Virus record (IMG/VR): IMGVR_UViG_3300017971_000844
Coordinates: 1-21,108 of that record
DNA from: a virus
DNA: 21,108 nucleotides
Strand: one strand, 5' to 3'
The notes under the pieces were generated by a model, which was not told the DNA's origin, ran no database searches, and saw only the letters and a list, made by a program, of their open reading frames with translations. Positions 19-17,295 of this stretch are shown here, one piece after another. Numbering within the stretch: the stretch's first letter is position 1; each line of letters starts with the position of its first letter. The position numbers and the translations under genes were made by a program.

Positions 19-105
19 GGAAACTATTTCGGAATTCTCGAAAGTAGTTCCTTGCTTATCGGTGTGGCGCAGGTAGTGTATTGTTGTCGGGCGGCAACGG
101 GCCGC
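19..105 (+). promoter_or_regulatory. Repeated leader cassette, copy 1 (class A, 87 bp)
   Basis: This is the reference copy. In order it holds GGAAACTA, a near-palindrome around GAATTC (TTTCGGAATTCTCGAAA, 27-43), a candidate promoter, and a GGGCGGCAACGGGCCGC hairpin word. The promoter guess is TTGCTT at 52-57 and TAGTGT at 74-79 with a 16-base spacer; a TGTATT at 77-82 is an alternative -10 box. The same 87 bases recur ahead of four other units, with one visible C/T difference (GGTGTGG or GGCGTGG). Conservation, strand and position just upstream of start codons support a regulatory role. The promoter boxes themselves are inference. Confidence 0.75.
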
Positions 106-160
106 AACGGGCGGCAACGGGCCGCCCGCCAGCAACGAGACCGATTGTGAGGGTTACACC

Positions 161-442
161 ATGTCGCACAGTTATGACGTTTATGCCGAAACGTGGGAAA
201 AACACGATGGGCGGCATGTGACGGTTGGGGAGCTTCGTTGCAAAATCCAGGTTAGGTCGTATGTGGCGGCTTACCCGTATCGGCATCGTGTGATAACTGT
301 ACACGCTGTACCGACTCGCATCGCGAAACGGTCTGAATCGTATTTGCGGGTTAAGCGGGAATTAGGGGATGATTGGTCCACCGACATTCTCGCGTCCGAT
401 TGTGAGGTTGAGTGCGATATTCTCGAACAACTGGGAGAGTAG
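161..442 (+). CDS. Hypothetical protein, 93 aa (unit 1, gene 1)
   Basis: I do not recognise this protein. It is soluble, rich in charged residues and tyrosine, and has no signal peptide or membrane segment. Residues about 20-60 could form beta strands (alternating V, I, R and Y), followed by an acidic C-terminus ending EQLGE. The start is chosen for the GAGGG ribosome-binding site at 149-153, about seven bases before the ATG, in a leader that directly follows cassette copy 1. The next gene starts five bases after the stop, so the two form a two-gene unit. The small size and position suggest a phage early accessory protein; that is inference. Confidence 0.75.
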   Translation: MSHSYDVYAETWEKHDGRHVTVGELRCKIQVRSYVAAYPYRHRVITVHAVPTRIAKRSESYLRVKRELGDDWSTDILASDCEVECDILEQLGE

Positions 443-446
443 GATT

Positions 447-746
447 ATGCCACCTGTAACGGTCGTGCGGCTTGGTTTTCCTGAGACGGAAACGACGGAT
501 ATTCTGATGGTAGTGGAAGGGCCCGCTCGTAAGGTTTATGAGCATTTTGGCAGAGGTGCCAAATTGTTCGGCCCTGGCGAAATTGACGTTTTGCCTATCG
601 GCGACGATGGTCCGGCCGATGCGGATTTTAACGCCCGCATGGATGTTATCGCTCGTGACGATTCTTACGATGTTTCCTTCGCGCTGACCAATGGTAACGG
701 TTGGACCGTTTGGACGGGTCGTGAGAATATTCCGACTTCGAAATAA
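447..746 (+). CDS. Hypothetical protein, 99 aa (unit 1, gene 2)
   Basis: I do not recognise this protein. The chosen start (MPPVTVVRLGF) follows GGGAGAG at 433-439 and lies just after the stop of the previous gene. A longer reading from 369 would overlap that gene heavily and lacks a comparable ribosome-binding site. The protein mixes beta-prone stretches (TVVRLGF, DILMVVEG, DVSFALTNGNGWTVW) with acidic turns and looks like a small single-domain alpha/beta protein. It has no cysteine cluster, signal peptide or membrane helix. The GC-rich mosaic begins right after its stop codon. Confidence 0.72.
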   Translation: MPPVTVVRLGFPETETTDILMVVEGPARKVYEHFGRGAKLFGPGEIDVLPIGDDGPADADFNARMDVIARDDSYDVSFALTNGNGWTVWTGRENIPTSK

Positions 747-903
747 CGGGCGGCCCTGGCGGCCCGCGTGTGGCTCCGCCAGCAACGGGCGGCCCGCGTG
801 TGGCCCTGGCCCTGGCGGGCGGCCCTGGCGGCCCGTGTGGCCCTGGCGGGCGGCCCTGGCGTGTGGCTCCGCGCTTTGAGCCCTGGCCCTGGCGGGCGGC
901 CCT
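747..903. repeat. GC-word mosaic block 1 (157 bp)
   Basis: The block consists almost entirely of permuted words: GCCCTGGC, GGGCGGCC, CCGCGTGTGGC and TCCGCCAGCAACGGGCGG. The words contain almost no TA, so several reading frames stay open on both strands. The resulting Gly/Ala/Pro/Arg reading frames are artefacts. The block separates the end of unit 1 from cassette copy 2. Confidence 0.85.
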
Positions 904-990
904 GGAAACTATTTCGGAATTCTCGAAAGTAGTTCCTTGCTTATCGGTGTGGCGCAGGTAGTGTATTGTTGTCGGGCGGCAACGGGCCGC
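904..990 (+). promoter_or_regulatory. Leader cassette, copy 2 (class A)
   Basis: Same layout as copy 1, with the GAATTC dyad at 912-928. The leader goes on to the start codon at 1043 through further GGCGGCAACGGGCCGCC hairpin words and ends CAACGGAGAACGGGTT. From 904 to 1049 it matches cassette copy 4 and its leader (2558-2703) base for base except for one C/T, which indicates recent duplication or gene conversion. Confidence 0.75.
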
Positions 991-1042
991 CAGCAACGGG
1001 CGGCAACGGGCCGCCAAGGCCGCCAGCAACGGAGAACGGGTT

Positions 1043-1354
1043 ATGACGACTAAGCGGAAACTGCGAGTTGTGGCGAATGCTCCGGTTCGTAAGGCTGTTG
1101 CGGGTGTTGACACTTATCACGATGATAAGGAAAGCGCCATCGAAGCCGTTTGTGCGGCCTGTTACGATTGTGGCTTTGCTACCGAGCCGACCGATCTGAT
1201 CGGTGACGACGGTTATACCACTTGGAGGCTCTTTCACGATCCTAACGGTCGTGGCGTCATTAACGAATGTGAGCCTCTTGACAATTGCATCGCCATTGCA
1301 TGGTATACCATGCCGAGCGGTCGTATCGAATTAACCGTTTACGTCAGCATCTGA
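1043..1354 (+). CDS. Hypothetical protein, 103 aa (unit 2, gene 1)
   Basis: I do not recognise this protein. It has a basic N-terminus (TTKRKLRVV), a cysteine group CAACYDCG around residues 37-44, and a beta-prone C-terminal half (YTTWRLFHD, IAIAWYTMPSGRIELTVYV). With only that cysteine group plus isolated later cysteines, a metal site is possible but not shown. The start follows GGAGAACGGGTT, the same ribosome-binding context used by the 424-residue gene in unit 4. Two further small genes follow within 15 bases each, giving a three-gene unit. Confidence 0.78.
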   Translation: MTTKRKLRVVANAPVRKAVAGVDTYHDDKESAIEAVCAACYDCGFATEPTDLIGDDGYTTWRLFHDPNGRGVINECEPLDNCIAIAWYTMPSGRIELTVYVSI

Positions 1355-1368
1355 CGATTGGAGGGGTC

Positions 1369-1488
1369 ATGTTGGCTCTAGTATATGGGGCAGCTTTCCT
1401 ACTTCTGCTGTGTTTGCAGGACAGGGACATTGCGCGGGCTACGCTGATTGGCGTGGCGATAGCGATTACGCCGTTCATCCTGTTTTAA
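1369..1488 (+). CDS. Two-helix micro-membrane protein, 39 aa
   Basis: The start is at 1369, after GGAGGGG (1360-1365 region) with close spacing. A longer in-frame reading from 1285 would overlap the upstream gene. The protein is nearly all hydrophobic: residues about 2-16 (LALVYGAAFLLLLCL) and 25-39 (TLIGVAIAITPFILF) flank a short charged turn, QDRDIAR. It is probably a small inner-membrane protein with two transmembrane segments. The function is unknown; phage early membrane micro-proteins often modulate the host envelope or superinfection, but nothing here shows that directly. Confidence 0.7.
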   Translation: MLALVYGAAFLLLLCLQDRDIARATLIGVAIAITPFILF

Positions 1489-1500
1489 GGGGTCGTACCG

Positions 1501-1902
1501 ATGTTGACGAAAGTTCAGTTCAGAACGGATAGCGTGTTTGGTCGGAATGCCGGGTTCGTGACGGAGATTCCGTACGGGAAGGTCGTGCGGATCGTCCTGG
1601 CTGAAACGAAGGAATGGGTGGACGACGGTTGTAAGGGTGGTATCGACGCGCTTGCTCGTAACGTCTTTATGGTTATTCCGGCCATTCCGATCTGGACCGA
1701 TTCTGACGGCGGCAACGAAGAGCCGGGTCCTGCTGGTGCTCACGTCAATATCGATGATCGGGATAATACCGTTTTCTTCGGTCTTGAGTGTGAGAAGCGT
1801 ACGTGGGGTCATGTGGGTTTTGGCGGTGAGTTGAAACACGCCGAACACTTCGATGGTCCGGTTGATAAGGTTCACGCGGCCATTGACCTTTTTTCCGATT
1901 AG
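1501..1902 (+). CDS. Hypothetical protein, 133 aa (unit 2, gene 3)
   Basis: I do not recognise this protein. The ATG follows AAGGGG (1487-1492) that overlaps the stop of the membrane micro-protein, which suggests translational coupling. The sequence is acidic and soluble, with beta-like segments (KVVRIVLAET, NVFMVIPAIPIW, NTVFFGLEC, WGHVGFGGEL). It contains two cysteines, far apart. A minus-strand reading over the same stretch shows no ribosome-binding site and is treated as a shadow. The gene ends unit 2 and abuts the shortest GC-word block. Confidence 0.76.
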   Translation: MLTKVQFRTDSVFGRNAGFVTEIPYGKVVRIVLAETKEWVDDGCKGGIDALARNVFMVIPAIPIWTDSDGGNEEPGPAGAHVNIDDRDNTVFFGLECEKRTWGHVGFGGELKHAEHFDGPVDKVHAAIDLFSD

Positions 1903-1963
1903 TCCGGCGGCCCGCGTGTGGCTCCGCCAGCAACGGGCGGGCGGAGCCCTGGCGGGCGGCCCT
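1903..1963. repeat. GC-word mosaic block 2 (61 bp, shortest)
   Basis: Contains a single run of CCGCGTGTGGCTCCGCCAGC, then GGGCGG and GGAGCCCTGGC words. It gives the minimum block that still sits between a gene end and a cassette. Confidence 0.8.
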
Positions 1964-2050
1964 GGAAACTATTTCGGAATTCTCGAAAGTAGTTCCTTGC
2001 TTATCGGCGTGGCGCAGGTAGTGTATTGTTGTCGGGCGGCAACGGGCCGC
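1964..2050 (+). promoter_or_regulatory. Leader cassette, copy 3 (class A)
   Basis: The dyad is at 1972-1988, with the GGCGTGG variant. The leader tail differs from copies 2 and 4: it repeats CCGCAACGGG three times and then TTGTAGGGGTTACTCCG up to the start codon. The number of hairpin words in the leader therefore varies between copies. Confidence 0.73.
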
Positions 2051-2097
2051 CAGCAACGGGCCGCAACGGGCCGCAACGGGTTGTAGGGGTTACTCCG

Positions 2098-2412
2098 ATG
2101 AAACTGTTTTTCATGAATCTCGAGGTTGACGGGTTTATGGGGATGTACCCGATTGCAGCGAAGGATCGGGCTGGCGCGATGCTGGCGCTTCGACGGGTTG
2201 TGCCGAATCCTCTGTTTTCGCGGCTCGTGTCGATTAACGAGGTTTTCCGGCTTGACGATGATATGCTGGATATGGCGCTCGAAGCGCTCGGGGTATGGTT
2301 TGGCAATTGTTGCGATCACGCCGACGGTAACGATTCTGTCAGCGATGCCGATTGGGATGAAATTCTCGAAATTGAGCGTCGCACGCATAAAATGCTCTGC
2401 AAGCTATCGTAG
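2098..2412 (+). CDS. Hypothetical protein, 104 aa (unit 3, single gene)
   Basis: The ATG at 2098 follows TAGGGG (2084-2089); an in-frame reading from 2026 would translate the cassette hairpins and is rejected. The protein begins MKLF, has a predicted helix around DRAGAMLALRRVV, then an acidic helical part (DDDMLDMALEAL) and an acidic C-terminus. It weakly resembles the 106-residue protein of unit 5 in its MKLF start, a central 'A..A...VV...P' pattern and overall length, so the two may be diverged copies. No function is assigned. Confidence 0.74.
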   Translation: MKLFFMNLEVDGFMGMYPIAAKDRAGAMLALRRVVPNPLFSRLVSINEVFRLDDDMLDMALEALGVWFGNCCDHADGNDSVSDADWDEILEIERRTHKMLCKLS

Positions 2413-2557
2413 CGGGCGGAGCCCTGGCGGGCGTGTGGAGCCCTGGCCCTGGCGGGCGGCCCGCGTGTGGCTCCGCCAGCAACGGGCGGCCCTGGCGGGC
2501 GTGTGGAGCCCTGGCGGAGCCCTGGCCCTGGCGGGCGGGCGGCCCGCGTGTGGCCCT
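2413..2557. repeat. GC-word mosaic block 3 (145 bp)
   Basis: Word order here is GGAGCCCTGGC, GGGCGTGTGGA, GCCCTGGC, GGGCGGCCCGCGTGTGGC and so on. The order differs from block 1 although the words are the same. Confidence 0.83.
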
Positions 2558-2644
2558 GGAAACTATTTCGGAATTCTCGAAAGTAGTTCCTTGCTTATCG
2601 GCGTGGCGCAGGTAGTGTATTGTTGTCGGGCGGCAACGGGCCGC
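2558..2644 (+). promoter_or_regulatory. Leader cassette, copy 4 (class A)
   Basis: The dyad is at 2566-2582. This is the near-identical partner of copy 2, including the whole leader down to the start codon at 2697. It drives the longest gene of the left arm. Confidence 0.75.
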
Positions 2645-2696
2645 CAGCAACGGGCGGCAACGGGCCGCCAAGGCCGCCAGCAACGGAGAACGGGTT

Positions 2697-3971
2697 ATGA
2701 CGATTGAGACGCTCGCAACGGTTCGCATCGGTGATCGGGGTTTGACGGCTTTGCGGGTCAACGTCGATGGTCTGAATAAGCGGGCCGCGCGGCATGGGAT
2801 GGAACCAATGGCCGTGACGGTTACGCGTACTGTGCAGTTTTTCCCGCTGCGGTACAGAAAGTCCGATGGTACGCGTTATATCGGTTGTGCCAGCGATCTG
2901 CATGATGTCGAGATTACGGGTCAAGCCCCTCGTATCAATGGTTGGGCGCTTGCGGCCTGTATCGATTTTACAACTGAGATCGGTACTGTCGTTAAAATCG
3001 CTCCGGGGCGTGACGACGACGGTAGCTTTGAAACGTATCGTACGCATAATGGCGCTTGTGAGCATTGTAACACTAACAGGCGTCGCAATGATGTTTTCGT
3101 TTTGGAGAATGAGGACGGTCGGCGCAAAGTTGTCGGTCGCAACTGTCTTGCCGATTTTCTCCGTTGCAAGGGCGCTGACGCTTTCGCACGTTACGCCGAA
3201 TATGCCGATAAGGTGCGTGAACTGGTTCGCAGCGATGGTGCCGATGAGTCCGATTATTACGGCGGCGGCTGTGGGCCAACGGCTACGCGGCTTGAAACGT
3301 ATTTGCCGGTCGTATCGGCTTTGATGAAAAAGGTCGGTTGGGTCAGTCGTACCGCTTCTCGCGAAGCTGACGGTGGTATGGCTACTGCCGATTTGGCGTG
3401 GGTTATCATTTCTCCGCGTAATTCCTACGATAGGAAATTGGCGGATTCGTTGGAATTGGAGGTTTGTGCGGCTGATCACGCTATTGCCGCTCGCGCCACT
3501 GAGTGGGCTCGTAACGTCGATGTCAGTGGTAACGAATATCTGTATACTATCAGTCAGATCGCTCATAAGGGTGAGGTGGCTGAGCGCGGTCTTGACGGTT
3601 ACGCGGCCTCGATCATCATTGCCTATCGTAAGGCTTGTGAGCGTGAGGCGCTTGAAGCCGAACGTAAGGCCCGTAACAAAAATAAGGTCTGGTTCGGTAC
3701 TGAGAAGAAACGCGAAAAGGGGCTTCGCGTCACCTGTAAGGGTTTGCACACTTTCGAGGGTCATTACGGTCCTACCACTATCGTGCGTTTTGAGCATCGT
3801 ATCAATGATAACGACGTTGCGGTTCTGGTCTGGTTTGCCAGTGGCGCACGTGAGAACGATTGGGAGGTTGATGAGGATTACACCATCGATGCCACTGTTA
3901 AGGGTCATGACGATCACGAGAAGTATGGCAAACAAACCAAGATTAACCGTGTGAAGGCTCACGCGGCTTAG
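2697..3971 (+). CDS. Zinc-knuckle / OB-like domain protein, 424 aa
   Basis: This is the only large left-arm gene. Residues 121-124 form CEHC, followed by TNRRRNDVFVLE and then KVVGRNCLADF around 144-154. This cysteine and arginine arrangement recurs in uncharacterised phage and plasmid proteins and probably binds zinc. Residues about 335-422 (LRVTCKGLHTF, YGPTTIVRFEH, VLVWFASG, YTIDATVKGHDDHEKYGKQT) look like a beta-barrel nucleic-acid-binding (OB-like) domain. The middle is helical and charged. A role in phage DNA metabolism is inference. The start follows GGAGAACGGGTT. A 455-residue reading on the opposite strand is a shadow that continues into the cassette. The codon ends are T- and C-rich, as in neighbouring early genes. 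Confidence 0.88.
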   Translation: MTIETLATVRIGDRGLTALRVNVDGLNKRAARHGMEPMAVTVTRTVQFFPLRYRKSDGTRYIGCASDLHDVEITGQAPRINGWALAACIDFTTEIGTVVKIAPGRDDDGSFETYRTHNGACEHCNTNRRRNDVFVLENEDGRRKVVGRNCLADFLRCKGADAFARYAEYADKVRELVRSDGADESDYYGGGCGPTATRLETYLPVVSALMKKVGWVSRTASREADGGMATADLAWVIISPRNSYDRKLADSLELEVCAADHAIAARATEWARNVDVSGNEYLYTISQIAHKGEVAERGLDGYAASIIIAYRKACEREALEAERKARNKNKVWFGTEKKREKGLRVTCKGLHTFEGHYGPTTIVRFEHRINDNDVAVLVWFASGARENDWEVDEDYTIDATVKGHDDHEKYGKQTKINRVKAHAA

Positions 3972-4203
3972 TCCGGTTGTGCCGACGGGCGGCCCGCAAC
4001 GGGCGGGCGGCCCGCAACGGGCGGGCGGAGCCCTGGCCCTGGCGGAGCCCTGGCGGCCCGCGTGTGGCCCTGGCGGCCCGCGTGTGGCTCCGCGCTTGCT
4101 GGCGGCCCGCGTGCGGCCCTGGCGGAGCCCTGGCGGGCGTGTGGGCGGCCCTGGCCCTGGCCCTGGCGGGCGTGTGGGCGTGTGGCTCCGCGCTTGGAGC
4201 CCT
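3972..4203. repeat. GC-word mosaic block 4 (232 bp)
   Basis: It opens with two copies of GGGCGGCCCGCAACGGGC and then the usual words. CGCGTGTGGC and GCCCTGGCCCTGGC runs are frequent. Two long open readings across it are artefacts of the TA-poor words. Confidence 0.84.
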
Positions 4204-4290
4204 GGAAACTATTTCGGAATTCTCGAAAGTAGTTCCTTGCTTATCGGCGTGGCGCAGGTAGTGTATTGTTGTCGGGCGGCAACGGGCCGC
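4204..4290 (+). promoter_or_regulatory. Leader cassette, copy 5 (class A)
   Basis: The dyad is at 4212-4228. The leader continues AACGGGCGGCAACGGGCCGC and ends in a distinct GGCCAGGGCAAAACGAGGTACGG stretch that supplies the GAGG ribosome-binding site of the next micro-gene. Confidence 0.73.
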
Positions 4291-4339
4291 AACGGGCGGC
4301 AACGGGCCGCCAGGGCCAGGGCAAAACGAGGTACGGATT

Positions 4340-4426
4340 ATGACGGTCGCGCTTACAGTCGCGCTTGGAGCGCTTACAACGATTCTGTGGATCGTCATGT
4401 GCGTGCAGAAAATTCTGGAGGGTTAG
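4340..4426 (+). CDS. Single-helix membrane micro-protein, 28 aa
   Basis: It reads MTVALTVALGALTTILWIVM and then CVQKILEG. The hydrophobic core covers about residues 3-20 and ends in a short basic/polar tail, typical of a single transmembrane helix. ACGAGG at 4326-4331 gives a ribosome-binding site about eight bases upstream. The stop is followed three bases later by the GTG start of the next gene, and cassette copy 5 lies just upstream. These facts support a real gene despite its length. The function is unknown. Confidence 0.6.
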   Translation: MTVALTVALGALTTILWIVMCVQKILEG

Positions 4427-4429
4427 GTC

Positions 4430-4615
4430 GTGACGAAAAAACACTTTGTGATGATGGCGGCCAAGTTTAAGGGTCTTTACGATTCTGCCGCCGACGTGCC
4501 CGAATGTAGGGCTGGTATCATCCTTGCCGTTTATGCGTTCTGCGACGTTGCAGAGGATGCTAACGGTCGGTTTGATCGTGACCGATTTTGCAAGGCTGCC
4601 GGTATTCACGGTTAG
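4430..4615 (+). CDS. Small conserved phage protein, 61 aa (GTG start)
   Basis: It begins with GTG, placed after GGAGGG at 4418-4423. The pattern 'MTKKHF..MA..FK', a central helix AGIILAVYAFCDVAEDANG and the ending FDRDRFCKAAG matches a type of short hypothetical protein common in phages of many hosts, in which the C-terminal 'FDR.RF..A.G' is the most constant part. The function of that family is unknown. It lies between a membrane micro-gene and the 106-residue gene in the same unit. Confidence 0.75.
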   Translation: MTKKHFVMMAAKFKGLYDSAADVPECRAGIILAVYAFCDVAEDANGRFDRDRFCKAAGIHG

Positions 4616-4655
4616 GCCGGATTCCCCGAAAATTCACTCTGTGAGGGTCGCATCG

Positions 4656-4976
4656 ATGAAGCTGTTTCGTTTCATTTTCGCGGATTGTCCGTTCGGTACG
4701 GATACGACGATTGTGCTGATGGCGGGGAAAACTCTGCTTGAAGCGTTCGAGTGGGTCGTGCGGATTGATCCGACTCTCGAGGATCGGGAGCTTGTGCGGA
4801 TTACTCCGATCAAGTCGCTTCGTTCGGTCGAGGCGCATGCAGCGGATTTCTCGGTTGGGGTGTTCTTTGGCGATTGGAACGACCGTAACGGTCGTGCCGA
4901 TGTTGCCGAATCCCTGGCTGTAGCGGAAAGGAAGTTCGCGACGCTTGGTGCGATTAGGCGAATTCGTCCCGATTGA
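4656..4976 (+). CDS. Hypothetical protein, 106 aa (unit 5, gene 3)
   Basis: The start at 4656 (MKLFRFIFADC) follows GTGAGGG at 4641-4647; a longer reading from 4524 overlaps the previous gene. The fold looks alpha/beta: FRFIFADCPFG, a helix LLEAFEWVVRI, ELVRITPI, then FSVGVFFGDWN and a basic C-terminus RRIRPD. It shares the MKLF opening and helix/VV pattern with the unit 3 protein, a possible distant paralogue. No function is recognised. Confidence 0.75.
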   Translation: MKLFRFIFADCPFGTDTTIVLMAGKTLLEAFEWVVRIDPTLEDRELVRITPIKSLRSVEAHAADFSVGVFFGDWNDRNGRADVAESLAVAERKFATLGAIRRIRPD

Positions 4977-4987
4977 AATCGTCCGGG

Positions 4988-5057
4988 GGATTGTGCGTCA
5001 TATAGGGGCAGCGCTCAGCGCTATCGGCCCGCGCCCGTCCGCACGCCCCTACAATCC
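4988..5057 (+). terminator. Two-part inverted repeat after unit 5
   Basis: GGATTG (4988-4993) pairs with CAATCC (5052-5057), and TAGGGGC (5003-5009) pairs with GCCCCTA (5045-5051). Two AGCGCT palindromes lie inside. It comes 11 bases after the stop codon. There is no clear T-run, so a structural or attenuating role is as likely as intrinsic termination. Confidence 0.4.
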
Positions 5058-5145
5058 CTACAATCCTCAAATCCGTTAAAATCCTCAAAATCCTCAAATT
5101 CGTCAAAATCGTTAAATCCCTCAAAACCCTCAAATTCGGCATAAT
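5048..5145. repeat. 9-bp periodic array
   Basis: Two CCTACAATC units are followed by nine in-phase 9-mers from 5065 to 5145: CCTCAAATC, CGTTAAAAT, CCTCAAAAT, CCTCAAATT, CGTCAAAAT, CGTTAAATC, CCTCAAAAC, CCTCAAATT, CGGCATAAT. The consensus is about C(C/G)TCAAAAT. It is A-rich on this strand and stands out inside the GC-rich inter-unit DNA. The opposite-strand reading gives a Leu/Arg/Ile repeat without a ribosome-binding site, so I treat it as non-coding. Confidence 0.8.
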
Positions 5146-5150
5146 CGGAC

Positions 5151-5412
5151 CTTGGTGTGGCCCTGGCCCTGGCGGAGCCCTGGCGGGCGGCCCGCGTGTG
5201 GCGTGTGGAGCCCTGGCGGCCCGTGTGGAGCCCTGGCCCTGGCGGGCGGGCGTGTGGAGCCCTGGCCCTGGCGGGCGGAGCCCTGGCGGGCGTGTGGCTC
5301 CGCCAGCAACGGAACGGGCCCGCGCACGCGTACGCGTGTGGGCGGAGCCCTGGCGGGCGGCCCGTGTGGCCCTGGCGTGTGGCCCTGGCGTGTGGCCCTG
5401 GCGTGTGGCCCT
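5151..5412. repeat. GC-word mosaic block 5 (262 bp)
   Basis: It includes an unusual CCCGCGCACGCGTACGCG stretch at about 5318-5336 and ends in four tandem copies of GCGTGTGGCCCTG-type words (5366-5412), so local tandem expansion is visible. Confidence 0.84.
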
Positions 5413-5532
5413 GGAAATATTTTCGGGCGTGTTTTCCCGTGTTTTTGCGTGTTTTCGAGAATTCTCGAAAGTAGTTCCTTGCTTATCGGCGTGGCGCAGG
5501 TAGTGTTTTGTTGTCGGGCGGCAACGGGCCGC
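5413..5532 (+). promoter_or_regulatory. Leader cassette, copy 6 (class B, 120 bp)
   Basis: Replaces the first part of class A by GGAAATATTTTC and three CGTGTTTT words at 5428, 5438 and 5448, exactly 10 bp apart. A perfect 18-base palindrome, TTTCGAGAATTCTCGAAA, follows at 5453-5470. The promoter-proximal part is as in class A, except that the TGTATTG word reads TGTTTTG. The stepping by one helical turn and the perfect dyad look like a protein-binding array. Confidence 0.75.
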
Positions 5533-5560
5533 CAGCAACGGGCCGCAACGGAGCGAGACA

Positions 5561-5704
5561 ATGCCGGGAGTCGTAACGAAAATGACGGTTTTCACGCATC
5601 GGCGTGAAATACTGGCCCTTGGCGGCTGGCGTCTGATCGTAGCGGTTCTTCTGGCTAAGCCGGGAACTCCGTTTCTTACAGTTTTCACCCGAGTTGTAAG
5701 GTAA
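5561..5704 (+). CDS. Micro-protein, 47 aa, possibly membrane-associated
   Basis: It begins MPGVVTKMTVFTHRREI and continues with a hydrophobic stretch LALGGWRLIVAVLLA (about residues 18-32), then a KPGTPF turn and a basic end FTRVVR. The start lies directly behind cassette copy 6, with GGAGCGAG at 5549-5556 as a ribosome-binding site; an internal ATG at residue 8 is an alternative. The next gene follows after five bases. One membrane segment is plausible but is interrupted by an arginine. The function is unknown. Confidence 0.52.
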   Translation: MPGVVTKMTVFTHRREILALGGWRLIVAVLLAKPGTPFLTVFTRVVR

Positions 5705-5709
5705 CTATC

Positions 5710-5931
5710 ATGGACTCAGCAACTAGCGACGCCCTTACTTGGACATATCACCGCGAATATAGCGTATTTGTGCGCGAAACTTTGGACGGTCCGGCCGACT
5801 TGCTTTATTGTGGCTCTGATCCCGTGTTCGCCTACCGACTGCGCGACAATTTCAAGTCGGCCGACTGCGCCGCGTGGGTTGACGTGAAATACTGGGCGCA
5901 GCGCGGCGACGGCTTGCAACGTAGCCTGTAA
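5710..5931 (+). CDS. Hypothetical protein, 73 aa
   Basis: The ATG follows GTAAGG (5696-5701). The sequence is soluble and aromatic-rich: TWTYHREYSVFVRETLDG, DLLYCGSDPVFAYRLRDNF, WVDVKYWAQRG. The pattern of short strands and the 'LLYCGSDPVFAYRLRD' centre suggest a small beta-rich domain. I do not recognise it. It ends unit 6, and a clear hairpin terminator follows 30 bases after the stop. Confidence 0.72.
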   Translation: MDSATSDALTWTYHREYSVFVRETLDGPADLLYCGSDPVFAYRLRDNFKSADCAAWVDVKYWAQRGDGLQRSL

Positions 5932-5961
5932 CCCCCAACGGGGCAACGGTTTGGGACTGGT

Positions 5962-5991
5962 AAGGCCGCCCGCGCTGCAACGGGCGGCCTT
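5962..5991 (+). terminator. Intrinsic-type terminator hairpin after unit 6
   Basis: AAGGCCGCCCG (5962-5972) pairs perfectly over 11 bases with CGGGCGGCCTT (5981-5991) across the loop CGCTGCAA. It is followed by GCTTTGC, a weak T-run. The stem is built from the same GGGCGGCC and GCAACGGG words that make up the cassettes and mosaics. Confidence 0.65.
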
Positions 5992-6020
5992 GCTTTGCGC
6001 GCGTTTGGCATAGTATTTGC

Positions 6021-6310
6021 AACGCGCGTGCGCGGGCGGGCGCGGGCGGGCGTGTGGGCGGGCGGAGCCCTGGCGGGCGGGCGTGTGGCTCCGCCAGCAA
6101 CGGGCGGGCGTGTGGAGCCCTGGCGGCCCGCGTGTGGCCCTGGCGGGCGTGTGGAGCCCTGGCGGCCCGCGTGTGGCCCTGGCGGAGCCCTGGCGGGCGT
6201 GTGGAGCCCTGGCGGGCGGGCGTGTGGCGTGTGGAGCCCTGGCGGCCCGTGTGGCTCCGCCAGCAACGGGCGGGCGGAGCCCTGGCGGGCGGGCGTGTGG
6301 GCGGAGCCCT
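6021..6310. repeat. GC-word mosaic block 6 (about 290 bp)
   Basis: Starts in alternating GCGCGTGCGCGGGCGGGCGC and passes into the standard words. GGCGGGCGTGTGGAGCCCTG recurs several times in close order, so parts are near-tandem. Confidence 0.84.
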
Positions 6311-6430
6311 GGAAATATTTTCGGGCGTGTTTTCCCGTGTTTTTGCGTGTTTTCGAGAATTCTCGAAAGTAGTTCCTTGCTTATCGGTGTGGCGCAGGTA
6401 GTGTTTTGTTGTCGGGCGGCAACGGGCCGC
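6311..6430 (+). promoter_or_regulatory. Leader cassette, copy 7 (class B, 120 bp)
   Basis: Same length and layout as copy 6. The CGTGTTTT words are at 6326, 6336 and 6346, and the palindrome is at 6351-6368. It differs visibly from copy 6 at the GGTGTGG/GGCGTGG position. The two class B copies lead the last two units of the left arm. Confidence 0.75.
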
Positions 6431-6462
6431 CAGCAACGGGCCGCCAGCAACGGAGCGATACG

Positions 6463-6561
6463 ATGATTAACGACGTAACGATTATCGGGGCCGCGTTCTT
6501 CGCCGCCGTCATAATCGGAAGTTGGCTCCAAACGCAGCTATTCGCGCCCCGCTATTTCTAA
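6463..6561 (+). CDS. Single-helix membrane micro-protein, 32 aa
   Basis: It reads MINDVTIIGAAFFAAVIIGS then WLQTQLFAPRYF. The hydrophobic segment covers about residues 5-19, with an aromatic tail, as in short inner-membrane proteins. GGAGCG at 6452-6457 is the likely ribosome-binding site. It is the first gene behind cassette copy 7, and the second gene starts 17 bases after its stop. It resembles the 28-residue protein of unit 5 in architecture but not in sequence. Confidence 0.58.
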   Translation: MINDVTIIGAAFFAAVIIGSWLQTQLFAPRYF

Positions 6562-6577
6562 CCCGGAGAATCGGAAC

Positions 6578-6712
6578 ATGCGTACTGAACGGTATTATCA
6601 GGACGGGTTCGGTTGGAAACTCGAGACCGGATATTCGCGCCAGCCGTCACAGCCGGACTGGCTCGAGAGAATCTTCGCGAAAATTGACGCGTTTTGTCGT
6701 CGATTGCCGTAG
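6578..6712 (+). CDS. Hypothetical protein, 44 aa
   Basis: The start follows CCGGAGAA at 6562-6569. The protein is polar and aromatic: RTERYYQDGFGWKLETGYSR, then PDWLERIFAKIDAFCRRLP, which should form a short amphipathic helix. The long alternative readings on the opposite strand run on through the GC mosaic and are rejected. It is the last recognisable gene before the 2-kb region without genes. Confidence 0.55.
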   Translation: MRTERYYQDGFGWKLETGYSRQPSQPDWLERIFAKIDAFCRRLP

Positions 6713-6814
6713 ATCGGCGCACGTTTTGCTAGGCGGGCCCAGGGAGGGGCCTGCATAACCGGAAAATCCGCTATAACCGGGCAGGCGGCTGCGCCTTCCT
6801 TGGCATAGGGGTAT

Positions 6815-7153
6815 GCGCGGAGCCCTGGCCCTGGCCCTGGCGGGCGGGCGTGTGGGCGGGCGGAGCCCTGGCCCTGACCCTGGCGGGCGGGCGGCCCGCG
6901 TGTGGCGTGTGGCTCCGCCAGCAACGGGCGGGCGTGTGGGCGGAGCCCCGCGCGCGGAGCCCTGGCCCTGGCCCTGGCGGAGCCCCGCGCGCTTGTCTCT
7001 CGGTGTGGCCCTGGCCCTGGCGGGCGGGCGGCCCGTGTGGGCGGCCCGTTGCTGGCGTGTGGGCGGAGCCCTGGCCCTGGCCCTGGCGTGTGGAGCCCCG
7101 CGCGCGGGCGTGTGGGCGGAGCCCTGGCGGGCGGCCCGCGTGTGGCGTGTGGG
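6815..7153. repeat. GC-word mosaic block 7 (longest; no cassette follows)
   Basis: The same words as the other blocks, with added GGAGCCCCGCGCGC variants, but it ends at GTGTGGGCAACAACC and passes into a different repeat landscape. No GGAAACTA/GAATTC core or downstream gene follows. Just upstream, ATAACCGG appears twice (6755 and 6773). Confidence 0.82.
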
Positions 7154-7440
7154 CAACAACCAAGGAACCAAGGCCCGTACAGGCCGGATATTCGGTGCAT
7201 GTGGCCCTGGATTGGCCCTGCGCCGTACCATGCGCCGGTATGCAAGAGGGATGCGCCGGTAATGCGGGCTGCATAACCGGCACATGCTGTGTATCTGAAC
7301 CTACATGGCCACATGTAACGATTATGCAAGGCCATATGTAGGGGTGGTACTGGTTGTAGGTGGCAAAGATGCACCATTTCTGTAGGTAGGGCTGTTGGTT
7401 GTGCCGGAAAACCGGATTATGCAAAGTGGGCAATATACAG
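7154..7440. other. Non-coding repeat region, left part
   Basis: No credible gene is present. Repeated words occur in both orientations: ATGCGCCGGTA at 7230 and 7251, CCGGTAATGC at 7256, GCATAACCGG at 7271, and GATTATGCAA at 7320 and 7415. CTACATGGCC (7301-7310) forms an inverted repeat with GGCCATATGTAG (7330-7341), with one bulged base. GGTTGTAGG is at 7352. Iteron-like DNA is the best description. Confidence 0.6.
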
Positions 7441-7970
7441 CCCTCCCTCACAACCCGCACAGATTCTACAACCCCACCTCCCAGGACACTACTTCCCCCA
7501 TACAACTGTCACCACCGTTACCACCAACGCCATTATGGCCCCTAAACCCCTATTTCTGGGTGGGTTTAGGACACTTGCGCTGGTTATAGGGCCCCTTAGA
7601 TGCCCCTCCACATTGCACAACCAGCACAGCCCCTACAACCTGAACCGCGCTGAGGCCCTACAACCCCTACAACCCGTCCTACAACCCACCCAGACCTCCC
7701 AACCCCACCACCGGATGTTCCACATGCACCGATTGTGAGGCCGTACAATCGGAATCGCTGGTCATAACGATTGTACCGCTCTGCATGTAGGGGATGTGCA
7801 GGTTGTAGGGGTGGTGGTATGGTCGTAGGATGTGGGTGGGTGAGTGGGTGTGTATGATCTGGTAGGATTGTAAGGTTGTGGTTGTACCATCTGGTAGGGT
7901 TGTGCAGGTCCGGTTGCAACGGTGGTAGGGGTGGGTCTAAAAAGTAGGAGGTTGATGGTAGGTGGGATTA
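7441..7970. repeat. TACAACCC / GGGTTGTA array with strand switch
   Basis: The left half is C-rich, with CCTACAACC-type words near 7467, 7632, 7656, 7664 and 7679. The right half is G-rich, with GTAGGGG and GGTTGTAGGG words from about 7787. At the switch, CCGATTGT (7730-7737) pairs with ACAATCGG (7746-7753), and GTACAATCG (7744-7752) pairs with CGATTGTAC (7769-7777), giving mutually exclusive hairpins. No gene with a ribosome-binding site is seen on either strand. Confidence 0.65.
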
Positions 7971-7992
7971 TAGGTCTCTCTTGCCCTATCGA

Positions 7993-8040
7993 CTGAATTT
8001 ATTTTGGAAATATTTTCTTTGACGCGTCAAATAAATCCAG
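7993..8040. promoter_or_regulatory. 48-bp dyad with central GACGCGTC palindrome
   Basis: CTGAATTTATTT (7993-8004) pairs with AAATAAATCCAG (8029-8040) at 11 of 12 positions. Inside lie GGAAATATTTTC (8006-8017), the same word as in the class B cassettes, and the perfect 14-base palindrome TTTGACGCGTCAAA (8018-8031). AGAAATATTTTC follows at 8039. The site looks like a protein-binding or replication element. Confidence 0.55.
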
Positions 8041-8159
8041 AAATATTTTCGCGTGCCAACACCCAACAATCTGGCCGCTCGGCCGCGATCTCCCAGGTCC
8101 CCTATTGACTGTTCCGATGGGGTCAAAAAAGTCGAATTTTCCGTCTGGGGAGGTGGGGA

Positions 8160-8462
8160 GGAGAAAAAGACTTTCTCCGTAAAACGCGTTTTTTGCACTT
8201 AAACCAGTTTTCACATGGGAAACTCTTTTACTCCTCCTCCCCTCCCCACTTTGACGCGTCATGAGCCAAAGGCAGCCCCTGAAGGGGTTTACGACTTGCA
8301 TACCCCCCATCAGAGGGGGGGGAGGAGGCAAATCTCCTCCCCCCCCCACATGGGGGGTTCGACGCGTCCAATCGTCTCATAATGAGACAAGTGTAGCATT
8401 TTGCTACACTTTTGGCCTCATACCCCCCACATGGGGGGGGGGAGGAAAACATTTTCCTCCCC
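8160..8462. repeat. Cluster of strong hairpins upstream of the terminase gene
   Basis: In order: GGAGAAA/TTTCTCC (8160-8178); AAAACGCGTTTT palindrome (8181-8192); TGACGCGTCA (8252-8261); a 13-bp GGGGGGGGAGGAG stem with loop GCAAAT (8315-8346); GACGCGTC (8361-8368); GTCTCATAATGAGAC (8374-8388); a 10-bp stem (8389-8411); CCCCCC-ACAT-GGGGGG (8423-8438); and GGGGAGGAAAA/TTTTCCTCCCC (8439-8462). All were read directly. The density of perfect dyads in about 300 bases suggests replication or packaging DNA. Confidence 0.65.
8389..8413 (+). terminator. Hairpin with T-run, terminator-like
   Basis: AAGTGTAGCA pairs perfectly with TGCTACACTT across TTT, and TTTT (8410-8413) overlaps and follows the stem end. 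It could stop leftover transcription before the late operon. No gene lies just upstream. Confidence 0.45.
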
Positions 8463-8610
8463 ACCTCCTCCCCACCTGTTCAAGTGTACACCAACAGCCC
8501 GAATCCGGGCCACCAGACTGTGCCCAGCCAACCGGCCAACCGTCCTAATTCAGGGGCACCGGGTGGGTCAAAATCGAACTATTTTGAAGAAAAAAGAAAA
8601 AAAGATTTTG

Positions 8611-8646
8611 CCTATAATCCTTAAAATCGTGAAAATTTGCATAATC
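8611..8646 (+). promoter_or_regulatory. Candidate late promoter in a 9-mer array
   Basis: CCTATAATC, CTTAAAATC, GTGAAAATT and TGCATAATC follow each other every 9 bases, like the array near 5065. A TATAAT box (8613-8618) lies behind an A/T-rich tract and 88 bases before the first late gene. No good -35 box at standard spacing is seen, so promoter status is tentative. Confidence 0.4.
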
Positions 8647-8705
8647 CCTACTTTTTTTCTATCAAAACGCCCGGAACGGCCCATAAGTGTAATAGGAGAC
8701 ACGAT

Positions 8706-9203
8706 ATGAGTCGAAAATGCAAATGGATGACAGAAAAAGGTCAATGCGGCCAAAACGCAATGATGGATTCCGAATTTTGCGAGTCTCATGCAGTAAAATC
8801 GGACCAAATTGACCTCGGAGCCTACGCGATCAACAAAATCCTCTTCGGGGACGCCCCGGAGCGGCACGCGAAGGCCTCGGAACTGAAATCTTTGCGAACG
8901 GAGATCGCACTTCTGAAGACGTTCTGCGAAAAGCGGATCAACCTGATGGAGAGCGACGCGGACTTCATCTCCTCGATGGGACCAGTCAAGGACGCCTTTA
9001 TGGCCATCGAGAAGCTAGTGGTGTCCTGCCACAACATGGAGGTCAAAATCGGCGAGCTTCTGAGCAAGCAATCACTGATGAGCCTTGCCCAGAAGATCGT
9101 CCACGTCATATCGACCAACCTCGAGGGTGTCGAAAACAAGGACATCATCCTCGAGAAAGTCGGAAAAGAAATCGTAGACCTCATTGCACAGCAGGAGAAC
9201 TAG
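8706..9203 (+). CDS. Putative terminase small subunit-like protein, 165 aa
   Basis: The start at 8706 follows AGGAGA (8694-8699); an in-frame extension from 8637 has no ribosome-binding site. The N-terminus carries a zinc-binding pattern C5-x8-C14-x10-C25-x2-H28 within a 'KC..M.EKGQCGQNAM.DSEFC.SH' framework, as in a group of small phage DNA-binding proteins. The rest is a long helical region (SELKSLRTEIALLKTFCEKRINLM; VKDAFMAIEKLVVSCHNMEVKIGELLSKQS), which fits an oligomerising body. Known TerS proteins recognise the packaging site, often next to their own gene, and the hairpin-rich DNA just upstream fits that. The assignment is inference, because TerL lies 6.4 kb downstream. Confidence 0.55.
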   Translation: MSRKCKWMTEKGQCGQNAMMDSEFCESHAVKSDQIDLGAYAINKILFGDAPERHAKASELKSLRTEIALLKTFCEKRINLMESDADFISSMGPVKDAFMAIEKLVVSCHNMEVKIGELLSKQSLMSLAQKIVHVISTNLEGVENKDIILEKVGKEIVDLIAQQEN

Positions 9204-12306: not shown

Positions 12307-13458
12307 ATGCGACCTGACTTGTACGATAGAGGTGCGAGATTCATCACAATACAACCGGGTGGTTGTTGTGGTGGAGGGGGTGGTACGCCCGGTGTGTTCA
12401 CAGTCGAGACCACTACTTGGAACTACACGAGTGTTTCATTTTCTAAGTCTGGCAACGTGGCCAAGTTCACCACGACCGACTACGACACGAACACCGTCAA
12501 TGTAACGCAGACAGTAAACAACCCGCGATTCGATTGGACGAGCAACAACGGCGGTATGACGGTAATGACCGAAGAGACCGACACGGTCTGCACGATCCAG
12601 TGTCGAAGCTCAGGGCTCGATACCCTCTGCATAACAGGCGATTGGCCATCTTTGACGTCGATTGACGCGGACACCAACCCTAACGTCACCACCATCAATC
12701 AAGGTAACTGGGCAAACATCGAGGACATGGACTTCACGGCATTGAGTCTCACTGAGTTTGAGACCTTCGAGTGGCCTTCCTTGAACTCACTGTACATAGC
12801 AGGTGCTTCGCATAGTCTTACTTCGTTCAACACATACGAGTGGCCCAACATGACCGTCTTGAGCTTGGTCTCAAGCGGGAACCTCGCCGGTATGAACATT
12901 GCTCAAGACTGGCCGAGCCTCGAAACCATCAACATTCGCGGCTGTAGCTTGAACACGTTCGAGCCCGGCACATGGAATAGGGTCAAGTACATCGACTGCG
13001 GCTACATCTCCTTTGCCACCATGAACAACCAAAGCACTTGGACTGCCTTGGAAAAGTTGATCTGCATTGTGGCGTACATGACTAGTGTCACTACGCACAA
13101 CACATGGACTAATTTGCAGGAGTTGTGGTTAGGTTGGGGAAGATTCACGTCAGGTACTTTCGAAACGCATAATGAGTGGACTGACCTTGAGTGGTTGTAC
13201 CTCAACAAAAGCGCCTACACGTTGAACGCTCTTACTATTCATCCGGGTTGGACCAAGTTCGACTACCTTGACTTCAGAGAAAGTGGCATTCCTGCCGCCG
13301 ACATCGACACGATCATTGAAGACGTGGACGCCATAGGCACCAGCGGCGGCAACCTGGATTATCGAAACTCAACATACGCCGCCGACTCGAACAGAAGTGC
13401 GTCAGCGAACACGGCGATTTCGAACCTAGTAGGGAGGGGCTGGACAGTCCTACGATAA
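12307..13458 (+). CDS. Tryptophan-repeat (LRR-like) solenoid protein, 383 aa
   Basis: After a Gly/Cys-rich segment (PGGCCGGGGGTPG, about residues 17-29) and a beta-rich region, ten repeats of 21-24 residues start at about residue 110. Each begins with Trp in the frame '.(D/E/N/G/S)W(P/T/A)xLxxLxI' (DWPSLTSI, EWPSLNSL, EWPNMTVL, DWPSLETI, TWTALEKL, TWTNLQEL, EWTDLEWL, GWTKFDYL). This resembles a leucine-rich-repeat or BspA-like solenoid, used in many surface proteins for binding. A role as a receptor-binding or tail-associated protein is inference. The C-terminal part (ADIDTIIEDVDAIGTS, SNLVGRGWTVL) looks like a capping domain. The stop overlaps the next start (TAATG). Confidence 0.68.
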   Translation: MRPDLYDRGARFITIQPGGCCGGGGGTPGVFTVETTTWNYTSVSFSKSGNVAKFTTTDYDTNTVNVTQTVNNPRFDWTSNNGGMTVMTEETDTVCTIQCRSSGLDTLCITGDWPSLTSIDADTNPNVTTINQGNWANIEDMDFTALSLTEFETFEWPSLNSLYIAGASHSLTSFNTYEWPNMTVLSLVSSGNLAGMNIAQDWPSLETINIRGCSLNTFEPGTWNRVKYIDCGYISFATMNNQSTWTALEKLICIVAYMTSVTTHNTWTNLQELWLGWGRFTSGTFETHNEWTDLEWLYLNKSAYTLNALTIHPGWTKFDYLDFRESGIPAADIDTIIEDVDAIGTSGGNLDYRNSTYAADSNRSASANTAISNLVGRGWTVLR

Positions 13459-15627: not shown

Positions 15628-17295
15628 ATGACACAGAAGGAACTACTCAAGGACTTCGGTGATCAACTGTTTGCTGGTCTGGTGTCCCGCACACTGGACA
15701 AATGCAGCAGGTGGGTGTGCCACCGTCGTATCATGGGTGAGCCCTTCCCAGGCAACTACACGTTCAAGTACCACCCGTGGTGCAAAGAAGTTCACGACTG
15801 CAACTCCGGCTTCTGCACAGTCATGAAAGCCGCTCAGTTGGGTCTAACGGAGGCCGCGATCAACCGCGCCTTCCACACTGTGGACGTTCTCAAGAGAGAC
15901 GTCCTGTATGTGCTGCCGACGGCGTTGAACGCCAGTGACTTCTCGAAGTCGCGGTTCAACACCGCCCTGCTGCACAGCCCGTATTTGGCCGATCTGTTCA
16001 CCGATACGAACACGGTTGGCCTGAAGCAAGCCGGTGGCGTCAACCTCTACATCAGAGGGTCACGCGGCGACAGCAACCTAAAGTCCATTCCGGTCTCCGA
16101 GCTAATCCTCGACGAAGCAGACGAGATGGACCAGCGAGCGATCTGGCTCGCTCTGGAGCGTCTGTCCGGTCAGTTGCACAAACATGTGTTCTCGCTGAGC
16201 ACGCCGACGATTCCGAACTTCGGAATCCACAAGCTGTACCAGCAAGGCACGCAGGAGCACTTCTACTTCAAGTGCCCGCGATGTGGCAAGACGACCGAAC
16301 TGATCTTCCCAGAGTGCCTGGAGATTTGCGGCGAGTCCATTACGGACCCGGAAGTGAAACGCTCGTACCTGAAGTGCAAGGAGTGCGAAGGGATACTGAC
16401 TCAGGAGGAGAAGCCCGAGTTCCTGAAGAAAGCATATTGGGAACCGACGGTAAGAGTTGAGGAAGATCATCGTAGCTTCTACGTCAACCAGATGTACAGC
16501 TACACCATCACGGCCGCTGACTTAGCCCTAGCATACTTCCGGGGCATCGGCGACGAGGCAGCCATGGTGGAGTTCCACAACTCCAAGCAGGGCTTGCCTT
16601 ACATCCCAGACGGCGGTCAAGTCACAGACAGTGAGATTGAAGTGGCCGTACAGAACTATTTCAAAGAGAGACAAAGACCAGACGTAGGCTCCGAACGACT
16701 CATCACGATGGGCGTTGACCAAGGTAAGATGAACAACATCGTGGTCATGGAATGGAGCGTGGATCACGGCATCGACATCAACGCATCGGCGTTCGGTAAG
16801 GTGCTGTTCGAAGGAAAGCTACCCGGAGACGACTTTAACACCCTCGACCCGCTGATGAGGGAATGGCAGGTGAAGGCCTGCGTGATCGACGCGGACCCGC
16901 AGATCAATGACGCGCGTCGATTCGCCCGCCGGTTCCCTGGCTACGTGTACTTGTGCCGTTACCGCCGAGGAGTGACGGGCAAGGAATTGCAAGTGTCGGA
17001 AGAGGAGAGTGGCGCACCCATCGTCACCGTGGATCGGACGAACTGGCTGGACGCTTCTATGGGGCGATTCCATTCAGACCGAATCCACATTCCTGCCGAT
17101 ACCTCGCTTGAGTTCAAGGACCATATGAAGGCCCTCGTGAGGACGTACGAGAAAGACGAGCTAGGCAACAGCAAAGCTGTCTACCTCAACACAGGCCCCG
17201 ATCACTTCGCACACGCTCTGAACTATGCTGAGATCGCCCTCCCATTGGCGGCAGGCATCGTGACGGGTGGCGACATCGAAGACAAGGTACTCTAA
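15628..17295 (+). CDS. Phage terminase large subunit, 555 aa (GpA-like)
   Basis: This is the ATPase and nuclease that packages DNA into the prohead. The N-terminal ATPase contains the variant Walker A AAQLGLTE (68-75) and Walker B LILDEADE (159-166). It is followed by a zinc ribbon CPRC (216-219) plus CKEC (250-253), an arrangement seen in GpA-type terminases. The nuclease part starts around MGVDQGKMNNIVVMEW (Asp364), with CVIDADPQINDARRF and the late DHFAHALNYAE motif. Length is normal for the family. It starts seven bases after the previous stop and is followed after two bases by the portal gene, the standard order. Confidence 0.93.
   Translation: MTQKELLKDFGDQLFAGLVSRTLDKCSRWVCHRRIMGEPFPGNYTFKYHPWCKEVHDCNSGFCTVMKAAQLGLTEAAINRAFHTVDVLKRDVLYVLPTALNASDFSKSRFNTALLHSPYLADLFTDTNTVGLKQAGGVNLYIRGSRGDSNLKSIPVSELILDEADEMDQRAIWLALERLSGQLHKHVFSLSTPTIPNFGIHKLYQQGTQEHFYFKCPRCGKTTELIFPECLEICGESITDPEVKRSYLKCKECEGILTQEEKPEFLKKAYWEPTVRVEEDHRSFYVNQMYSYTITAADLALAYFRGIGDEAAMVEFHNSKQGLPYIPDGGQVTDSEIEVAVQNYFKERQRPDVGSERLITMGVDQGKMNNIVVMEWSVDHGIDINASAFGKVLFEGKLPGDDFNTLDPLMREWQVKACVIDADPQINDARRFARRFPGYVYLCRYRRGVTGKELQVSEEESGAPIVTVDRTNWLDASMGRFHSDRIHIPADTSLEFKDHMKALVRTYEKDELGNSKAVYLNTGPDHFAHALNYAEIALPLAAGIVTGGDIEDKVL

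Follow-up and report, generated by a model that had tools for sequence, protein, structure and literature searches.

The window analysed here (the whole stretch of DNA, an IMG/VR virus record of 21,108 bp) encodes a large terminase of the GpA type (terL, 15628–17295, + strand), which served as the query for finding the family, a portal gene (17298–19169), and also a head-tail adaptor, a scaffold and a P22-type major capsid gene. The locus described below, which consists of a conserved core and a cluster of hairpins, stands at the head of the block holding the terL, portal, scaffold and major capsid genes, upstream of it and on the same strand. The first conserved gene downstream of the locus encodes a protein of 165 aa (8706–9203, + strand). 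Where these genes are seen together, the 165-aa gene is followed by a small protein, from its sequence likely a membrane protein, then by a peptidase-like gene and the terminase.

Relatives were gathered by a large-terminase scan, which yielded 50 related loci, and the records of 24 loci were searched whole; relatives of the 165-aa gene were present in 18 of these 24 records, and a direct scan of viral contigs with the 165-aa gene let no close relative pass. In the phage collection searched, neither the 165-aa gene nor the DNA of the locus turned up in a known phage, and the locus belongs to a family of uncultured tailed phages without cultured representatives in that collection. The literature searched, as far as its accessible portions go, held no description of the conserved locus. 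A search of species genomes returned only two matches, a 290-kb Planctomycetota MAG contig (L075, with the same gene block, TerL 62%) and an Anaerolinea MAG contig, which are only suggestive as a clue to the host.

The initial annotation had drawn attention to five hairpins next to the 165-aa gene and read them as a possible packaging site or, as a second idea, an origin. All five are present, both as read from the sequence and as computed: a perfect 13-bp stem (8315–8327/8334–8346), CCCCCC-ACAT-GGGGGG (8342–8357 and again 8423–8438), GGGGAGGAAAA/TTTTCCTCCCC (8439–8449/8452–8462), the palindrome GTCTCATAATGAGAC (8374–8388), and AAGTGTAGCA-TTT-TGCTACACTT, that is, the palindrome AAGTGTAGCATTTTGCTACACTT (8389–8411) of a recurring GTGTA...TACAC class. 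As claimed, CACATGGGGGG occurs twice, at 8347 and 8428. The arms of GGGGAGGAAAA/TTTTCCTCCCC are 2 nt apart, and the pair consequently forms a 10-bp stem with a loop of 4 nt. The sequences of the 13-bp stem and the first CCCCCCACATGGGGGG both exist, but not as two separate stems: they use the same C's (8342–8346) and are therefore mutually exclusive as drawn, and the fold is a single long imperfect G/C-run hairpin holding both (8302–8358, z −5.4). The CCCCCCACATGGGGGG and GGGGAGGAAAACATTTTCCTCCCC hairpins lie side by side at 8423–8462 (z −4.3). The longest inverted repeat of the window, a hairpin with 30-nt arms that are 87% complementary (8146–8175/8219–8248), lies outside the stretch annotated earlier and had been missed; it and 8339–8441 are the only two inverted repeats scoring at least 12 in the whole 21-kb window. 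Taken together, positions 8140–8500 fold with z-scores of −10.8 (DNA), −10.9 (RNA, + strand) and −11.1 (RNA, − strand), with 0 of 100 shuffles as good in each case. The segments 8299–8345 and 8419–8465 form a diverged duplication (77%). The window gave no Rfam match at the gathering score, and a tRNA search found none.

Folding was compared among relatives in 150-nt windows between the first palindrome of the core (see below) and the 165-aa gene, with a z below −3 being counted. This was the case for 5 of 8 windows here, 2 of 6 in L053, 1 of 6 in both G004 and L007, 1 of 5 in L028, none of the 27 windows from the other six relatives, and 2 of 56 coding controls. A minimum z of −5 or lower, taken as strong folding, was reached in 2 of the 10 relatives tested (L053 and L028). 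The lack of strong folding in the remaining eight, together with the diverged duplication and a single weak counterpart of the 8146–8248 hairpin at the far end of record G007 (nhmmer E 0.0023), is what one would expect if the hairpins, considered by themselves, were neutral repeats and duplications accumulating in a non-coding spacer. We give this reading an even chance, and it is compatible with the core being an initiation site. It is countered by the density of perfect palindromes with arms of at least 8, of which there are 14 in 14.9 kb of locus versus 28 in 120.2 kb of late genes across 14 genomes, a fourfold difference (the left gene block of the window, with 6 in 7.3 kb, is about as dense as the locus). 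It is countered also by the GTGTA...TACAC class, which was found in 4 genomes, each time in the locus or no more than about 600 bp from it, in a scan of 785 kb with some overlapping stretches; at least one of the listed hairpins is thus not random. The G/C-run stems look lineage-specific, as do most of the listed hairpins, which for this reason are mostly not the recognition core. A search of the collection with the 8146–8248 pattern gave 18 stretches, and besides G007 no comparable hairpin was seen in the flanks viewed. The 40-kb contig of G007 itself stops (L065, positions 1–80) within a hairpin with 15-bp arms that is weakly like the one at 8146–8248.

What is conserved in the family lies partly outside the stretch covered by the initial annotation. 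In the window (7933–8029), the core consists of three elements, the box GGGTGGGTC, GCCCTWTC and the palindrome TGACGCGTCA, in this order and with near-fixed spacing. An alignment of 14 genomes, including a variant with a changed palindrome (G013), places the two boxes on the + strand at 7929–7989, with GGGTC of GGGTGGGTC at 7933–7937 and GCCCTAT at 7983–7989. The first palindrome, TTTGACGCGTCAAA, spans 8018–8031 with its core GACGCGTC at 8021–8028; a second, TGACGCGTCA, follows at 8252–8261 and a third, GACGCGTC (TTCGACGCGTCC), at 8361–8368. The commonest 8-mer upstream of the 165-aa gene is GACGCGTC, which occurs in all 13 upstream regions compared (G003 was omitted and G004 taken because they are the same phage); the upstream regions of G013 and G015, outside this count, contain no exact GACGCGTC. 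In 11 of 11 genomes GGGTC lies 87–88 bp and GCCCT 37–39 bp before the first GACGCGTC, and these one-base differences in spacing argue against coding sequence. The box arrangement has a single match in the window and 0 in 100 shuffles, and the gap-free alignment of the core reaches 73 bits, compared with 32 ± 2 in rotated controls.

Fourteen of 17 genomes have a further G[AC]CGCGTC after the first palindrome and before the 165-aa gene, with the search in G025 confined to a stretch that ends short of that gene. GGGTC precedes the further palindrome by 84–91 bp in 7 of the 16 genomes that have one, two truncated contigs counted in, and the pair may be regarded as a partial second copy of the core module; the second GGGTC copy is absent from the window. 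Over 21 records (836 kb), 25 of 29 TGACGCGTC places fall in the locus, with five records lacking any; the counts are not fully independent, as G003 and G004 represent the same phage throughout the stretch compared. Repeat sites of the initiator type are thus concentrated at one place of the genome, as at an origin, and other functions are also compatible with such a concentration.

The core can be recognised from DNA. The pattern GCCCTWT-N29-32-TGACGCGTCA, run on viral contigs without protein information, returned 17 stretches, 14 of them from the phage family of the window; four of these 14 were new (G027, G029, G031 and G033), and each has both terL and the 165-aa gene. The remaining three stretches come from records without terL and without the 165-aa gene. 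G025 and G026 had already come up with a stricter pattern. The short core is accordingly sufficient to find further members of the family.

Upstream of the first palindrome the base composition changes abruptly. In the window, a C-rich arm with CCTACAACC-type simple repeats (7421–7771, GC skew −0.39 and −0.42) meets a G-rich arm with GGTTGTAGG-type simple repeats (7771–7946, GC skew +0.63). Across the family, the skew at −600 to −400 from the first palindrome is negative in 15 of 15 genomes (mean −0.32), at −400 to −250 negative in 14 of 16, and at −250 to −75 positive in 16 of 17 (mean +0.34); the anchor was one base off in 2 of 18 genomes (G009 and G013), which is immaterial for such wide bins. 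This sharp local inversion would fit divergent G-rich transcripts.

The 165-aa gene follows the first palindrome at a distance of 0.2–0.8 kb in 14 of 17 genomes. The exceptions are G027, with 2.5 kb and an intervening GIY-YIG-like reading frame (a sequence reading), G029, with about 3 kb, and G025, with 13.5 kb; since core and gene are 2.5–13.5 kb apart in these three genomes, the core is not merely the promoter of the 165-aa gene. The intervening DNA in G025 (L086, 44–57 kb), about 13 kb long, encodes an MmeI-type methylase, a serine recombinase and a protein that weakly matches PEP-CTERM, and may represent either cargo or an integrated flank.

The 165-aa protein begins with C-x8-C-x10-C-x2-H, invariant in all 13 aligned members, and continues with helices. 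Weak Pfam matches to WRC (7 of 13 members) and zf-C3Hc3H (4 of 13) fit the zinc motif only. The suggestion that this gene encodes the small terminase found no backing in similarity by family, sequence or fold: searches of Pfam, PHROGs, PDB sequences and PDB folds gave no small-terminase match, and no family or fold match of any kind. The absent fold match says little, because the predicted model is only of middling confidence (mean pLDDT 75, pTM 0.41).

We tentatively interpret the locus as a cis-acting initiation site, most likely for replication, with the hairpins being mostly lineage-specific additions. Several observations favour this: the near-fixed spacing of the core in all 11 genomes and its alignment score relative to the rotated controls; the recovery of the family by DNA pattern (14 of 17 stretches) and the concentration of TGACGCGTC places in the locus; the repeated dyads combined with the inversion of skew from −0.32 to +0.34; and the separation of the core from the 165-aa gene in G025, G027 and G029. 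That the hairpins are additions is favoured by the recurrence of strong ones in only 2 of 10 relatives. Of the initial proposal, the notion that the terL block begins with a special cis-acting locus holds and extends to conservation across the family, but the hairpins mostly do not serve as its recognition core; the origin, there the second idea, is the best-ranked reading here, centred on the core instead of the hairpins. Our best guess at a ranking puts replication initiation first, slightly ahead of packaging as a close second, with late-gene regulation third.

Under replication initiation, a dimeric protein encoded by the phage would bind the TGACGCGTCA dyads and might join a partner at the box in building a complex of fixed geometry, which would most likely open the DNA for replication. 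The skewed arms would give G-rich transcripts in both directions, and these could prime synthesis. In the window genome, the hairpins at 8146–8462 would then be extra stem-loops of the spacer, tolerated or mildly useful, rather than the recognition core. A comparable arrangement is found in PLE, a satellite of ICP1, whose RepA_N origin contains semi-palindromic repeats that can be bound by an initiator dimer (PMC7145576). The phage locus resembles such an iteron-type origin in being a non-coding region with semi-palindromic repeats suited to a dimeric initiator, and differs in that PLE has a RepA_N-like initiator and none is known for the phage locus. Several points speak against an initiation site. 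Genome-scale GC skew in the 117.6-kb relative G025 shows no turn at the core, and the locus adjoins the packaging and capsid block, not replication genes that were identified. The commonest position of the second palindrome, 90–200 bp before the 165-aa gene, would also suit a regulator of that gene. The distant relatives G012, G014, G015, G017 and L075 have no palindrome near their 165-aa gene, and the window is without the second GGGTC copy.

A packaging site, at which the terminase would bind the box and palindromes and cut, is a possible though doubtful reading; cos or pac stays under consideration because the locus heads the block of terL, portal, scaffold and capsid genes. The genome with the core has a GpA-type large terminase, the lambda kind, and lambda cos is likewise a rigid multi-part site, of about 200 bp with the subsites cosQ, cosN and cosB (PMC4669245). 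The likeness to a lambda-type cos thus covers a multi-part non-coding site of rigid order near packaging genes and the GpA-type terminase; the dyads here, in contrast, are fully palindromic and repeated, no TerS or R sites were recognised, and a cut within a fully palindromic site would be expected to leave self-complementary overhangs. We know of no cos site with skewed arms. Of 18 records, 14 have a contig end no more than 1.8 kb upstream of the 165-aa gene, and so does one more (G033) of the six found by pattern, which would suit physical ends. However, the ends share no fixed point, at least 5 of 14 viewed begin by eye in tandem repeats, and six records (the window, G019, G025, G026, G027 and G031) run more than 2.5 kb past on the left. 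Since the distances differ and several stops lie in simple repeats, the evidence favours assembly breaks over fixed physical ends, contigs not being virion ends, and fixed contig ends are ruled out as proof of cos because they vary.

Control of the late genes, in which a phage regulator would use the TGACGCGTCA dyads as operators and the core would govern transcription, divergent or rightward, into the late block, appears rather unlikely to us. Perfect dyads are typical of dimeric regulators, the second dyad often stands 88–200 bp before the 165-aa gene, and the skew inversion is compatible with divergent transcription. The spacing from second dyad to gene start varies, however, no terminator-like site is present, promoter-like matches are near the shuffled level (2 versus 0.7 ± 0.8), and the core is 2.5–13.5 kb off the 165-aa gene in three genomes. 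Phage operator clusters share with the locus the repeated perfect dyads near the start of a gene block, but the core here includes additional boxes with fixed spacing and can lie 2.5–13.5 kb away from the conserved gene that comes next. It is improbable, in our estimation, that the locus is of an undescribed type in which opposed skewed arms would drive divergent G-rich transcripts (R-loops) into the box-palindrome core, which would start replication and also mark the DNA for the neighbouring packaging genes, while rapidly evolving hairpins would tune the locus in each lineage. Transcription terminators between the left gene block and the late block would explain stable stem-loops between two co-directional blocks, but are very unlikely, as 7900–8800 contains 0 terminator-like sites against 1.9 expected from shuffles and the stems have no T-run.

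An ambiguous cluster of hairpins has in this way become a defined site, and the interval 7930–8260 is the place to seek replication starts or virion ends. The case is a caution as well: the hairpins that stand out in a control region can be what is least conserved in it.

Elsewhere in the window, positions 12307–13458 of the late block give a weak leucine-rich-repeat match, below cut-off, and two tandem stretches of L012 match the leucine-rich-repeat-like protein encoded there. On the left, a 424-aa gene has no relative in the 24 related records, and the gaps between the small genes (758–7180) are filled by GC-rich simple repeats (GGCCCTGGCGGGCGG, CAGCAACGGG and CGTGTGGCCCTGG). Positions 51–6415 also hold seven near-identical 40-bp units (CTTGCTTATCGG...TTGTTGTCGG), all on the + strand and several of them shortly upstream of a small + strand reading frame, which look like a multi-copy promoter module for the small-gene block.
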